Positions 1 to 14,300 of a stretch of DNA of 64,000 bases are shown in pieces (within the stretch, counting starts at the first letter, position 1; each line of letters opens with the position of its first letter). Under the pieces are notes generated by a model, which saw only the letters and a program-made list of their open reading frames with translations, was not told the DNA's origin and made no database searches. Source of the stretch: Tetramitus jugosus. Lineage: Eukaryota; Heterolobosea; Eutetramitea; Acrasida; Vahlkampfiidae. The translations under genes and the position numbers were made by a program. The DNA is taken from assembly GCA_937625935.1 (NCBI GenBank), contig OW569382.1, forward strand, positions 1 through 64,000, read 5' to 3'.

Positions 1-879
1 CCAAACCCAACCCAAACCCAAACCCAAACCCAAACCCAAACCCAAACCCAACCCAAACCCAAACCCAACCCCCAAACCCAAACCCAAACCCAAACCCAAA
101 CCCAAACCCCAAACCCAAACCCAAACCCAAACCCAACCCAAACCCAAACCCAAACCCAAACCCAAACCCAAACCCAAACCCAAACCCAAACCCAAACCCA
201 AACCCAAACCCAAACCCAAACCCAAACCCAAACCCAAACCCAAACCCAAACCCAAACCCAAACCCAAACCCAAACCCAAACCCAAACCCAAACCCAAACC
301 CAAACCCAAACCCAAACCCAAACCCAAACCCAAACCCAAACCCAAACCCAAACCCAAACCCAAACCCAAACCCAAACCCAAACCCAAACCCAAACCCAAA
401 CCCAAACCCAAACCCAAACCCAAACCCAAACCCAAACCCAAACCCAAACCCAAACCCAAACCCAAACCCAAACCCAAACCCAAACCCAAACCCAAACCCA
501 AACCCAAACCCAAACCCAAACCCAAACCCAAACCCAAACCCAAACCCAAACCCAAACCCAAACCCAAACCCAAACCCAAACCCAAACCCAAACCCAAACC
601 CAAACCCAAACCCAAACCCAAACCCAAACCCAAACCCAAACCCAAACCCAAACCCAAACCCAAACCCAAACCCAAACCCAAACCCAAACCCAAACCCAAA
701 CCCAAACCCAAACCCAAACCCAAACCCAAACCCAAACCCAAACCCAAACCCAAACCCAAACCCAAACCCAAACCCAAACCCAAACCCAAACCCAAACCCA
801 AACCCAAACCCAAACCCAAACCCAAACCCAAACCCAAACCCAAACCCAAACCCAAACCCAAACCCAAACCCAAACCCAA
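1..879. repeat. Telomeric repeat array, CCCAAA hexamer
   Basis: Head-to-tail CCCAAA units (TTTGGG on the other strand) fill the first 879 bases and stop abruptly at unique sequence. The C-rich strand reading inwards from base 1 is the orientation expected for a left chromosome end. From about base 150 to 878 the array is essentially perfect. The first ~150 bases contain variants with CCCAA or CCCCAAA units, which is the reverse of the usual pattern of degenerate proximal repeats and may reflect poorer consensus at the extreme tip. TTTGGG differs from the TTAGGG and TTTAGGG types. Confidence 0.95.
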
Positions 880-3496: not shown

Positions 3497-5084
3497 CTAG
3501 TCTCTCCGGTGCAGTGCTTGTTTAACGCCAACCCCCAACCCAGCGTTCACCTCTTGTTCAAATTTTTCAACCAAGTCATTCAATGCCATTGCTTTCTCAA
3601 TTGCAAGTACAGCATTTCGATATTGATCTCGCTTGGTGCGATCTGCTTTGTGTCGTTCTAGTTTTCTCTTGGCATCGATGTATTGGGTCAACTGGTTCAG
3701 TTTGGCGGTTAGATTCTTGGAATGTTCTATTAACAAAGCCTGCCAGTATGTTGTCCAAACATAATTCTTCTTGGACTTGTCATTTGCTACTCTCTCTTTC
3801 AATGAGCTATTGTGCTTCAAAACAAAAGCTTTCATGTCCTTTGGGAGCTTTCTCCAACGTACTGTCGATAGAGTTTCAAGCACTTGTCTTTTTGCTTGTC
3901 TTCTCCTTTTGGGTAGCACAACTTGATCGCTTGATTCACAGCGACTTGGTTGACGAATGGTTGAATCACCAGTGGTGATTGCTATCAGCTCAATCACATC
4001 ACCGATAGGATTGGAAAAGGCGTCCGGATCAAGTAGTGATTGAATGTGTTGGTACTTGGTTTGGGCTGTTACATAACCTTATGTAACATAGAATGGACTT
4101 TACGTCCCTCCATCCCACATGTGTCTTGATGGCGATGTAGTCGCTAGTGTCGACAGAACCCTTGGATCTGATCCCATTGATGATAAATTGGCACACACAT
4201 CCTGATCTCAATGACCTGGGAGTGTATCCCTTTGCTAGATGCTTCGCAGCACTCAATTTCATTGACTTGCTCAATGCATTGTTGTCAACGATTACATTGT
4301 TGTCATTCAAATGAGTGAGCAAAGGCCAAGTCAAACATTCTTGTCTGACTTGGAAGTCGCCTGTCCATATGAGTTGTTGGAAATCATCGCGGGCAAAAAC
4401 ATGCCTTTTGATAGATACCATAAAAGAGCCAGGTTGGGACAAGTGATCATGTTTCCAGTGCCATAGATTGTCTGTTCACGAGGTTCGTGAAGAAGAACTT
4501 TGTCCTTCACGATCGTGAAGATGGACACGGAGGTGTTTCAATTCATTTCCAAACTCTTGTTTTGGATCCCCTCGTCGTGTATCCCGTAGGTGATTGGCTA
4601 AACTATTAGCAAATGTATCGCGCACCGTTTTGTAACTGTAGTTTAGTTCCACTCTCATACTCCACAAAAACAACAAAAAAGTAACTTTCTTGATAGGAGA
4701 AGGTTGTTCCTGATAGCCTTTTAAAGGCCAGTAGAAGCTCAGCAGTCATGGCCAGAGCTTGAATTCGTTCTGTCAACGATTTTGGTTGTTCATTGATGAT
4801 GTGACAGGCTGGAAGATCTTTTGTCCATCTTGTTCAGTGAGAGCAGTCCTCTTGATGAACTTTTGAGTTAATAGATCTATATCATCCAGCAAGTGATCAT
4901 TGATGATGGTATCACCATCCAGAACATTAATTTCCTTGTCAGTCGTCAAAAAACCATCCACAAAGTCAGGATGGTCTTGTTTCTGCAAAATTTTATTGTA
5001 CAAGTTACTGTATCGCTGCTCCATCTTGTTGGTTTTTGTCGGTTGGATGCAACTCAATTCAATCCCAAATCTCTTTGAGGTCAT
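3497..5084 (-). pseudogene. Tyrosine-recombinase-like pseudogene (Crypton/DIRS-type element relic)
   Basis: Minus-strand open frames at 5084-4773, 4676-4476, 4528-4331, 4442-4029 and 3997-3497 follow each other in different frames and look like one gene broken by frameshifts. The middle has ITCPNLALLWYLSKG, typical of the segment before the catalytic core of tyrosine recombinases (CPxxALLxYL). The next frame has TPRSLRSG, resembling the HxLRxG box but with Arg where His is usual, then HVGWRDVKSILCYIR, matching the H/W...Y end of the catalytic domain. A one-base shift near 4030 separates this from a basic C-terminal region rich in Lys/Arg. The family call rests on these motifs only; Crypton or DIRS cannot be distinguished, and no reverse transcriptase is visible nearby. 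Confidence 0.45.
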
Positions 5085-5401
5085 GGTTGGCCATGGCTTT
5101 TAATAGTTTGTCATTAGTCATTATTCATGATTCCAATTGTAGTTCACCGTTCGTCGGAGAGAGTCAGTCCACCGAAAAAGTTCAAATGAATAAAGCTCCG
5201 CAACCTGGAGTTTATGAGCTGACAATGTCAGTCGATTCTCTCATATTTGTTGCTTGTTGTTCTTGTTGTAGGTTTTGTATCCCTTACGCGAAGGAGAAAC
5301 AACCAGGGTCACAACAAAACCAATAACCATCAATTGACTGGGTTCAGGACTACTATAAGTCCTACCCAAACCCAAACCCCAACCCATGCCAACCATGCAA
5401 T
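5085..5401. other. Intergenic stretch between two relics
   Basis: No supported gene. Short plus-strand frames here lack a plausible start or family resemblance. The telomeric tract at 5364-5386 is the only clear element. Confidence 0.5.
5364..5386. repeat. Interstitial telomeric tract
   Basis: ACCCAAACCCAAACCCC followed by AACCCA, in the same orientation as the chromosome-end array. It lies on the far side of the recombinase relic from the telomere-like inverted repeat at 3365-3408. Confidence 0.75.
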
Positions 5402-11262: not shown

Positions 11263-11450
11263 TCTTATCGTGTTTTTTCTGTGATTTTTGTTGCCTGATG
11301 TGAAGGTTTTTGTTCTGGAGCGGGATATACTGTCAATCTGCAAGGGTTGTAATCTAGTTGTTGTAATATTATTCCGTTCATTGAACAACCGTCAGGGCTC
11401 TTTTTTCTTCTTGAAACAACAAGAACAAAACACCAACAAGAAACAACAAG

Positions 11451-12544
11451 ATGGATTTTTATCGACTCTTAACCATTTGTGGACTTAATTGGAGACTCTA
11501 TGCCTCAGCAGGATTCAATGATTGTAATGAACCTGTATGGAAGCTCCACTTGACCAATTACGAAAAAAAAGTCAAGTTTGAAGCCTTCGTTTTGTCTCGC
11601 GAGGATACTCCCGACATGAAGCAGCACTTGGAGAGTGTCTTCCATGAAAAATGTTCTCTGGTCTACGAGTTTCTGTCTCCCACAGTCACACAAAGTCGCG
11701 TCTCCTCAAAAGTATTCGATTCAACAACTCAGCAGGTCAATATATCAGTCCTATCAGGGATTCCATTTGTGTTCCAAAAGACTCCCTACAACCACCCGGA
11801 GGAGATGGCGATAGAGAGGCTCATTTTCATTCAAAAGAAACCAATAGAACTCCAAAATGAATTACTCAAAACTATTGATTCGTTGAAAGAGAAGATTGTT
11901 GTCTTGGAAAAAGAACTGGCGGAAACAAAAGCAACGTTAGTACCAAGTTCCATACTAGCTAACAATCAATCTTACATTGCCCATATTGGACGATGGCTTA
12001 AGCAATCAGGGTTTAGCAAAACTTCTCTGCTGTACAGAGCATCAACAAATGGATGGACCGCTCAAAATTTTCACTCAACATGTGATAACAGAGGTCCTAC
12101 TTTAACTATCATTCGTTCGTCTTTGAACTATATTTTTGGCGGCTTTACAACCCATCCATGGAATTCTTCTAACACCTATGCGTCAGGGAATGCCCACTCA
12201 TGGTTGTTTTCTCTGTTTAATGCAGCGGGATTGGGACCAATTCAATTACTCAACATCAATGCAAATTCTCAGCACAACCACTCAACTCAAGGACCGACCT
12301 TTGGGTCTGGACATGACTTTCGTATGTATATCTGACTTGCAACTAGTTTTGATCAAATTAGCTCACCATTTCTTTGTTAGATATCTCCAACGGATCAAAC
12401 ACAAACAACAGTAGCTACTCCAACTTGGGAAATTCTTATAGAACTCCGTTGGGTATCTATGGATCCGATGAAGCCAGAAATTTTCTGGCTGGAAGTTACA
12501 GTTTTACTGTTTCGGAAATTGAAGTGTTCCTTGTTCACAATTAA
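11451..12544 (+). CDS. TLDc domain protein (one intron)
   Basis: Exon 1 11451-12321 and exon 2 12381-12544 join across a 59-base GTATGT...TTAG intron (12322-12380) to give 344 residues. Without splicing the protein stops inside the TLDc domain; with it the domain completes as FGSGHDFHISNGSN ... LAGSYSFTVSEIEVF, the classic ending of the fold. An N-terminal region of no known family (1-140) is followed by a short coiled coil (about 140-165) and the TLDc domain (about 185-340). TLDc proteins are linked to oxidative-stress protection and V-ATPase binding; the role here is unknown. The stop codon TAA at 12542-12544 lies within TTAAGGT, the possible left end of the Fanzor element. Confidence 0.85.
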
Positions 12545-12669
12545 GGTTCCTAAAGAGAGCGGGGCTCGTATAAATGAAAACTTGCTGGACAGAAAACACG
12601 AAAAATCATCAAATAAAGACCCTGTATCATCAAATTATCACCCAACAACACAATAAATCAAACAACATT

Positions 12670-14247
12670 ATGCCTCGTGGTGTGCCTAAAAATGGCAAGA
12701 GGAAGAGAAAGACCCTAGAAAAGGAGAAATACTCGTCACACTCTGTCACACTCGAGCAAAGGTTAAGAAAGTATCTGAGAGTAAGAATGAACGAACTACA
12801 CAAAAACTCATCTATTCCAAAGTCTGAATACAGAAGAGTTGTGGAATATCATCAAAAGGTTAACATTCACTGCTCCAGTTTATGATTTTATCAAACTTCC
12901 ACCCAAGGAGTTGATTGAGATCATTCCTGTGTTGACTCAAGAGATTCGAACACTTGTTGGTGTTGAAACTGACAAGATAATGAATCTTTTGTGGAGAACA
13001 ACACCAACAACATGCTGAAATTTTACTGGCATGTTCAACGATTTGTCATTAACAATAACGAAATTATTTGCACTGCTTCCTTTGTCTCACTTCAAATGCA
13101 GGTGCATGGAAATTGGCACAGAAGAATTGGTTAAGATGCTCCAACGGGCAACGTATCCAAATAGAAGAAAGAACGAAATTCGGGAACCGATAGAATTCAG
13201 ATACAACCTCAAGCGCTTGCACATTGGTGAAAAGAAAATCCAAATAGACTCGATCAGAACTGACGGCATTCAGGTCTCTGTTGTTCTCAGACATAAACTT
13301 GTTGGAAAACACAAAAACAATAAGGCAAAGGAATCCAAGGGCCAAAAAGAAGCAAAGAAGAGCACAAAGAAACAACCGCCATGATTGGTATTGACCCTGG
13401 TATTGTTACATTGTTGAGTTGTGCTGATTCAGATGGCAAGAAGTGGGAGTTCTCTAACAAGACATACAGACATCTGTCACATCATTCAAAAAACTAAGTT
13501 GTTGAACACAAAGCAGAATGGAACAGAAAGAATGGAAAAGATTTAGATGAACTCCACAACTCGATCAAACAAGCCAGTGTATCGACAAGTGATCCATTCC
13601 TCGAACACATTGATTCTGTGATGAAGGTTGAGGATGATTTGTTGGATTTTTATTGCAGCCCAAAGGTGAAGAGACCGAACTGGGACAGCTATATCATGAG
13701 AGACAAAACAATCGCTAACGTTATGAATGATCTTCACAAGAGAGCAAATGGAAGAAAGATGATCATAGGGATGGGCAATGCCGGTTTCAAAAGTTATTTC
13801 AAAGGACACGCTCCAACACCAAAGGACAAATTGCTGAAAAAATTGAATGAACGATTTGACGTGAAGGTGATTGACGAGTTTATGACCAGTCAGACTTGTT
13901 GTGCATGCCATTTTCAGCTCAAGCCAGTGAAGCATAAGAGGCCAGACAAGAATGGAGTATCGGCAATATCTATTGTACGAGGAGTTAAACAGTGTGCAAC
14001 CACTAAATGTTTAGTCACTCACAATAGAGACCTCAACTTGCTTTGTCTTTTGAGAACAGAAATCAATGGACAACCACGGCCAGTTGTCTTCAAGAGGAAG
14101 ACAAGGGTCGCAAAACAATTGAATCGAATGGTGGAACACCTCCAAGGCTCATTCTATCATATAAATCCCAATTATATAGTAGCGTTAAGGTCAGGGAAGG
14201 GCGGTATTTTGGGAACCATATTTTTTATTGTGGACGGATGGGAGTAG
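12670..14247 (+). pseudogene. Fanzor (eukaryotic TnpB-like RNA-guided nuclease), decayed
   Basis: The gene is split over frames. A basic N-terminus starts at ATG 12670 (MPRGVPKNGKRKRK), continues after a shift near 12840 (FIKLPPKELIEIIP, to 13018), then at 13031-13384 (KKIQIDSIRTDGIQVSVVL, the pre-RuvC strand pair of TnpB/Fanzor) and, after another shift near 13378, in one frame from 13381 to 14247. That last part has RuvC-I MIGIDPGIVTLL (Asp), an in-frame TAA at 13495, IGMGNAGFKS, a Glu in VIDEFMTSQTC (13876), a zinc ribbon CCAC...CATTKC, and RuvC-III HNRDLN (Asp 14029). The Glu next to the zinc ribbon fits the rearranged active site described for Fanzors. Two or three frameshifts plus the stop make it non-functional unless they are assembly errors. 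No GT-AG intron removes them. Confidence 0.75.
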
Positions 14248-14260
14248 ACCGCCACCTTAA
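14185..14260 (+). ncRNA. Possible guide-RNA-like structure at the Fanzor 3' end
   Basis: TTAAGGT (14185-14191) pairs with ACCTTAA (14254-14260), and GGCGGT (14200-14205) with ACCGCC (14248-14253), giving a two-part stem with an 8-base bulge on the left side only. Inside, CCATA can pair with TGTGG around a T-rich loop. The Fanzor stop codon (14245-14247) lies inside the structure, as expected for TnpB/Fanzor guide RNAs, which start in or near the 3' coding end. This is inferred from hand pairing only. Confidence 0.4.
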
Positions 14261-14300
14261 GTTAGATAAAGCATCAATATCAAGTAGCAACAAAAATTCA

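Follow-up and report, generated by a model that had tools for sequence, protein, structure and literature searches.

What is the broken gene at 12670-14160 (+) of the window, the 64,000-nucleotide stretch of Tetramitus jugosus DNA analysed here, and do its relatives record what such a nuclease does for the element that carries it? The biological roles of Fanzors, the RNA-guided nucleases of eukaryotes, have been called unknown, with a TnpB-like role suggested as possible (Saito et al., 2023; PMC10432273). We find that the gene belongs to a known kind and is a fossil, and that the family around it is more interesting, since it offers a candidate, refutable genomic signature of Fanzor action.

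A dead Fanzor gene, probably of the Fanzor1 type, in a TTAA-bordered transposon

The first-pass annotation had read this locus as a decayed Fanzor/TnpB gene, on the basis of an IRTDGIQVSV strand followed by RuvC-I, VIDEF, a zinc ribbon and RuvC-III, and each of these motifs was found where it had been placed. The RuvC-I motif IGIDPG (13384..13401, +, by reading) is conserved in the sister copies, and open-frame translation, Pfam and alignment located the RuvC-II Glu (VIDEF), the C4 zinc ribbon and the RuvC-III HNRD at 13867..14034 (+). Searches in line with the check that the annotation had proposed returned both a Fanzor chain and PF07282. The longest open piece of the copy (13498-14244, 249 residues) has SpuFz1, the Fanzor1 of Spizellomyces punctatus (PDB 8gkh), as its best solved relative (E = 2.8e-8), also matched Parasitella Fanzor 1 weakly among PDB chains (E = 0.1), and scored 26.9 bits against the TNB domain PF07282, just above the cut-off of 26.3. 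The Fanzor fingerprint has been defined as DPG in RuvC-I together with a Glu six residues ahead of the first zinc-finger Cys (Yoon et al., 2023; PMC10711439), and the window copy reads IGIDPG and IDEFMTSQTC at these positions. These results, along with an alignment to the open sister L022, confirm that 12670..14160 is a dead copy of a Fanzor gene, probably of the Fanzor1 type. The choice of Fanzor1 over Fanzor2 was made from the chains matched (SpuFz and Parasitella Fanzor 1) and from element ends of the TIR/TTAA kind, not IS607, rather than from a tree. The annotation had also pointed to reports of Fanzors from Naegleria; such a protein is in print (NlovFz2), but it is of the Fanzor2 type, whereas the window gene is nearest to Fanzor1 chains. 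An AlphaFold model of four homologues reached a pLDDT of 38.9, too poor to use.

Piecewise protein alignment matched 12670-12750 (frame 2) to aa 1-29 of L022, 12748-13098 (frame 2) to aa 149-263, 12848-13372 (frame 3) to aa 183-360 and 13336-14160 (frame 2) to aa 349-636. About 119 codons, roughly aa 30-148 in L022 numbering, are gone, and a few residues are missing 3' of the RuvC-III motif. The TAA at 13495, which falls in the RuvC frame and is one of several stops, and the two frame changes are present as first noted, the second of them (reported near 13378) being placed near 13375 by alignment and the other near 12840. Protein identity to L022 is 65% and 75% in the two main pieces, and dN/dS against three sisters was 0.22-0.28 over the aligned pieces, an approximate value because the pieces overlap. 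Since the frame is broken all the same, the gene evolved under constraint and then decayed. Indel errors could by themselves give the frame changes, and the annotation had offered a fossil and a faulty assembly side by side. The first of these stands: besides its frame changes the copy has lost a long internal stretch and has a degenerate left end, which makes a fossil far likelier, and with several stops and 65-75% identity to the aligned sister as well, an intact gene broken by assembly is barely credible.

The window Fanzor sits in a TIR-bounded transposon that has TTAA at both borders and no transposase of its own. This transposon is decayed and spans 12541..14260 (+), both TTAA included, so that the feature is wider than first described. 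Its right end, GTAGACCGCCACCTTAA (14244-14260, +), is an exact match, and its degenerate left end, TTAAGG...GGGCTCGTATAAAT (12541..12575, +), was recognised by eye against intact left ends. Immediately upstream lies a host gene with a TLDc domain (11415..12544, +; PF07534, E = 1.2e-19), with an open frame from 11415 and a second exon assigned by reading, and the TTAA of the left end (12541) overlaps the apparent stop codon of this gene at 12542-12544, again by reading. A TTAA overlapping the stop codon of the upstream gene was used, by reading, in several insertions (window 12541-12544, L022, L043 and L063), and the L021 and L044 insertions are no more than about 10 bases away from a stop codon. 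The locus had been described as near a telomere, and the contig does start with a telomere-like array of about 147 CCAAAC copies (window 1-879). Three open pieces on the minus strand at 3497-5099 resemble a decayed tyrosine-recombinase or other mobile-element gene and had no Pfam support.

The family, its ends and its cargo

A search of the genome (26.3 Mb, 56 contigs) with the window piece gave 45 matches, the window itself counted, and 23 other places matched at least 219 of the 249 residues. Twenty sister loci of 9.5 kb each were fetched, and the intact relatives that had been thought possible elsewhere in the genome were found: in 18 of these loci, all except L023 and L040, the frame stays open for 606-649 codons, counted from the first Met. 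DPG and the ExxxxxxC motif (IDEFMTSQKC) are present in all 18 open sisters and the RuvC-III NRD motif in 17, L026 being the one in which it was not found. PF07282 scored above cut-off in the window, in L024 and in 27 places of the genome, and in one of the open sisters the SpuFz1 (8gkh) match extended over aa 134-617 (E = 1e-15). Mean dN/dS over the 18 open frames was 0.17 and the closest pairs have a dS of 0, demonstrating that the open frames are under purifying selection and that the family was recently active. In the protein database, five homologues from jgi and ena sources are 59-85% identical. The enolase piece of the host genome has 7ugh, the Naegleria fowleri enolase, as its best match, with 189 of 277 residues (68%) identical, which points to a heterolobosean distinct from N. 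fowleri. A viral contig set searched with the family protein yielded no viral relatives, and one exact 17-base TIR match in viral contigs was taken as chance.

Both TIRs, each bordered by TTAA, were identified in 15 of the 20 fetched loci. We infer the TSD of the Fanzor elements from the TTAA that borders each end and from copies truncated on the left. The TIRs are of two kinds, A (TTAAGGTGGCGGTCTAC, with a variant) and B (TTAAGGATGTAGTTCG), and the same nuclease family occurs in both. B-type ends also flank a separate Fanzor copy on contig C32, which is 41% identical. This copy, with an open frame of 379 aa at C32:2808-4989, a few kb from the contig end, represents a second Fanzor family and a possible source of the B ends. 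Elements of kinds A and B (L024, L028 and L037) have boxes resembling TATAAATA about 25-50 bases in from the left end, possibly as element promoters. PF13843 (DDE_Tnp_1_7) gave 12 genome matches, some of them pieces of one locus, and none was inside any Fanzor locus fetched. An open 653-aa gene for a piggyBac-type transposase was observed at L041:1371-3329 (PF13843, E = 1e-31); L041, the one transposase locus fetched, was rejected as the mobiliser because it has no TIR matching those of the Fanzor elements. With neither a transposase of their own nor a matching one among the loci fetched, the elements are classed as TTAA/TIR only and not as piggyBac-type. A transposase acting in trans probably mobilises them, and the TTAA points to one of the piggyBac type.

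At the right end of the window copy, a putative omegaRNA-like scaffold was delineated at 14167..14260 (+) using a 13-copy alignment, folds and pair counts. It contains a hairpin CCATA... and a UUAAGGU able to pair with the ACCUUAA formed by the right end plus TTAA. For Fanzor1 elements, TIR and TSD have been predicted to lie within the RNA scaffold, and the reRNAs of insect-virus Fanzor1, whose scaffold is predicted to include the TSD, extend about 15 nt past it (PMC10711439). By analogy with these reRNAs, the right flank at 14261..14280 (+) is the predicted guide, and hence target, of the window copy. The UUAAGGU:ACCUUAA helix can form in 12-13 of the 13 aligned rows and is nearly invariant; because it hardly varies, the pairing proves nothing. 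Covariation was not found for this helix as the named structure in the 13-copy alignment, and RNAalifold's own structure lacks it and has two two-sided pairs, each in one sequence. L036 and L039, which have open frames and are outside the 13 rows, lack the stretch that the 5' side of the helix would need. Fold z scores were weak, -1.1 to -1.6 in four copies and 0.02 in the window.

Many copies carry, left of the nuclease gene, part of VPS35, a gene of the retromer (PF03635, E = 2.4e-44), with 26 genome matches to VPS35 that include the parent gene (L042) and in several cases are pieces of one copy. The copied parent DNA starts inside an apparent intron (L042 position 2430, the next exon frame opening at about 2473), and so genomic DNA was captured. 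Copies are 97-99.8% identical to the parent over blocks longer than 300 bases, with mostly silent differences. We do not argue that the cargo is a conserved passenger protein, the pooled dN/dS among copies being 0.70 with L029 as an outlier. On the right, the VPS35 piece of L037 and L039 stops at the TTAA of the parent's stop codon plus one base. All seven element pairs compared have VPS35 pieces that are about 99% identical, whereas the nuclease genes in two of these pairs are only 83-84% identical, which shows that cargo moves between element lineages. Furthermore, the leftmost cargo of L023-L025 shares about 92% identity with the DNA on the left of the L035 element, and its junction with the element in L024 falls at the TTAA junction of the L035 locus; we read this cargo as a probable capture from the L035 locus. 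L024 and its relatives have a second cargo ORF (L024:1512-2060, minus strand) that is F-box plus chromodomain-like by reading, with sub-threshold Pfam matches only.

Left-junction scars and flank asymmetry

Seventeen copies have a right end but lack any left end that could be recognised within the fetched DNA, and their left sides were inspected as far as this DNA extended; two copies or ends on C6, C7:634437, C8:43682, C16:148794, the right junction of C24, C26:15927, C32, C38:437237, C48:10517 and C52:91097 were left out. In six of the 17, TTAA plus 9-22 bases of the copy's own right flank are duplicated at the left junction, and all six duplications begin exactly at TTAA. The length r of the duplicated flank is 12 in L021, 9 in L022, 9 in L035 and 11 in C52, and in two imperfect cases it is about 19 (C24r, two mismatches) and 22 (C25r, one indel). 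The exact prefix shared with the own flank is 8-12 bases in the six scarred copies. As a control, the seven TTAA-bearing left junctions (the six plus L033) were compared with the right flanks of other copies, and the maximum over 224 pairs was 5. The other 11 copies have no clear scar. Among them, L033 is flush at TTAA with one base shared, C1 shares a 7-base word with r21-27 and C10r a 9-base word with about r15-23 (both by eye and ambiguous), and no scar was found at the left junctions of L026, C19, C2, C11r and C43r. C4 and C35 are old copies in which no clear scar was read, and C47, fetched after scars had been predicted in left-less B-type copies, had none, so that this prediction failed. 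Mirror scars at the right junction were seen in neither of the two right-end-less copies tested (L043 and L044). At L061, L064 and L065, right-end remnants keep an omegaRNA-like scaffold with its own flank and have lost the nuclease gene; these are possible stand-alone guides.

The bases next to TTAA also differ between the two sides. On the left, 25 of 27 copies have A or T directly before TTAA, while the complementary base on the right is so in 18 of 33 (Fisher P = 0.0013); as this comparison was post hoc, with eight positions and two groupings looked at, the P value is to be read as about 0.02 (Bonferroni). In paired tests, the discordant counts were 13 versus 1 among 24 copies with both flanks (P = 0.0018) and 8 versus 0 among 15 full-length copies (P = 0.0078), and A or T precedes TTAA at all six scar sites. 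Because TTAA is palindromic, a transposase that treats both ends alike is expected to leave mirror-image flanks. The scars and the asymmetry fit a predicted TAM of [A/T]TTAA with the right flank as the guide. The element's own right end reads CCTTAA, with C before TTAA, and such a TAM would thus spare the donor.

Homing as a proposed explanation of the scars

Taken as a whole, these observations are best explained if Fanzor cuts the empty allele and the element is copied back one-sidedly from the element-bearing chromosome, an explanation that we consider somewhat probable. A transposase in trans would move the element, and Fanzor would bind an omegaRNA read from the right end, with a scaffold ending in TTAA and the right flank as guide. 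Excision or segregation would leave an empty allele that offers [A/T]TTAA plus the guide sequence, and Fanzor would cut this allele 3' of [A/T]TTAA. To the right of the break, homology with the donor would reach as far as the cut, and from this side the element could be copied leftwards from the element-bearing homologue or sister, while the left side would end in up to about 22 target bases without homology to the donor, as a tail. If this tail were joined unclipped, the product would be a left-truncated, immobile copy with a duplication of TTAA+9..22, and the observed r of 9 to 22 matches the junctions expected from such copying and joining. In four Fanzors for which it has been measured, the cut falls 9-21 bases away from the TAM (PMC10432273). 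Left-truncated copies beside host genes may later be mobilised along with the host DNA on their left side, and cargo like the VPS35 fragment would be explained in this way. The junctions are observed directly, and excision, cutting and copying are deduced from them. We judge it evenly balanced whether the TTAA+r scars, seen on the left only, are relics of a natural homing process in which a eukaryotic Fanzor is guided by RNA, because the six clean cases are few, most left-less copies are scarless and one prediction failed. A literature search of titles and opening lines of abstracts that left most subscription papers outside its reach found no paper linking Fanzor homing to such scars.

Repair after transposase action could also produce the scars, leaving Fanzor no part in them: of the TTAA ends, the left one would anneal at the right TTAA, copy 9-22 bases of flank and switch to the partly copied element. 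Templated insertions are a known product of end joining, and truncations flush at TTAA occur on both sides (L033 left, L044 right). Indeed, L033, L044 and the VPS35 border, all flush at TTAA give or take one base, are explained equally well in this way. However, the clean duplications are left-only (six on the left, none in two on the right) and reach about 19 and 22 bases, and the asymmetry at -1 is unexpected for a palindromic TTAA unless the transposase treats its two ends differently. Moreover, the parallel in Chlamydomonas discussed below is a Helitron, not an element moved by a TTAA transposase (PMC3627910). We regard this explanation as rather unlikely.

New insertion is another route to left-truncated copies, in which the scars would be target duplications of 13-26 bp that arise through target-primed reverse transcription or through some process that begins at the right end. 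LINE-type insertion gives left truncation with a duplication of variable length. One-ended transposition is a name already published for copies of this kind, having been proposed for CRe-1 by Bao and Jurka (PMC3627910). Against such an RNA-mediated or one-ended route, which we hold to be improbable, all six duplications start exactly at TTAA, no poly(A) is present at the right ends inspected, and L022 keeps in its left end a TATA-like box that probably lies upstream of any transcript start. That Fanzor is an inert passenger of a dying family and the scars are chance appears very improbable: the window copy and several others are broken, but dN/dS is 0.17 across 18 open frames with near-identical pairs, and own-flank prefixes of 8-12 bases stand against a cross-pair maximum of 5.

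Outside this genome, the closest parallel to the scars is found in the Fanzor1-bearing, Helitron-like elements CRe-1, CRe-2 and CRe-3 of Chlamydomonas, which are often 5'-truncated with right ends almost always intact (PMC3627910). As described there, most copies that deviate from the consensus 5' end, above all the 5'-truncated ones, have duplications of about 7-19 bp just after TTTT or a similar sequence, a few duplications greatly exceed this length (44-443 bp), copies whose 5' end is the consensus one are without them, and a non-Fanzor Helitron family has duplications in 1 of 200 copies. The authors left the cause open between Fanzor and the shorter length of the Helitrons (PMC3627910, 2013). 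The CRe elements thus share with the present family left truncation, intact right ends, a duplication after the target tetranucleotide and short extra sequences at some left junctions, and differ in their Helitron ends, TTTT target, exon-rich gene and few much longer duplications. We consider this recurrence of the same geometry in another transposon type the strongest outside support for the homing model.

Other known systems resemble the family in part. SpuFz1 likewise belongs to a multi-copy inverted-repeat element with an omegaRNA at its right end and, at some loci, further genes between the repeats, but its ends are different and its TAM is CATA; left-truncation scars, present here, are not mentioned for it in the portions of PMC10432273 available to us. 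GtFz1 of Guillardia theta has a measured TAM of 5'-TTAAN, like the TAM predicted here, but its locus was reported as seeming to lack inverted repeats (PMC10432273). Pack-TYPE TIR transposons also hold host gene fragments between their TIRs (PMC8903248); unlike in these, the fragments here lie left of the nuclease gene and two right borders are at TTAA. For bacterial TnpB of IS200/IS605, a guide recorded from the insertion site directs cutting of the element-free site, and guide-driven spread of the element has been reported (PMC11870625; PMC10432273), whereas in the Fanzor elements described here both target and act are deduced from scars only.

If the homing model is true, genomes already record what Fanzor does for its transposon, in a form that can be tested by haplotype comparison, and this record is present in two different transposon types that share Fanzor1. 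The TAM and the approximate reach of the cut would then be readable from genomes alone, and homing would explain the 5'-truncated, duplication-flanked Fanzor copies described from Chlamydomonas in 2013. Fanzor-driven repair would also be a way for elements to capture host genes on their left and for cargo to pass from one element lineage to another, and natural RNA-guided homing, shown for bacterial TnpB, would be eukaryotic as well.
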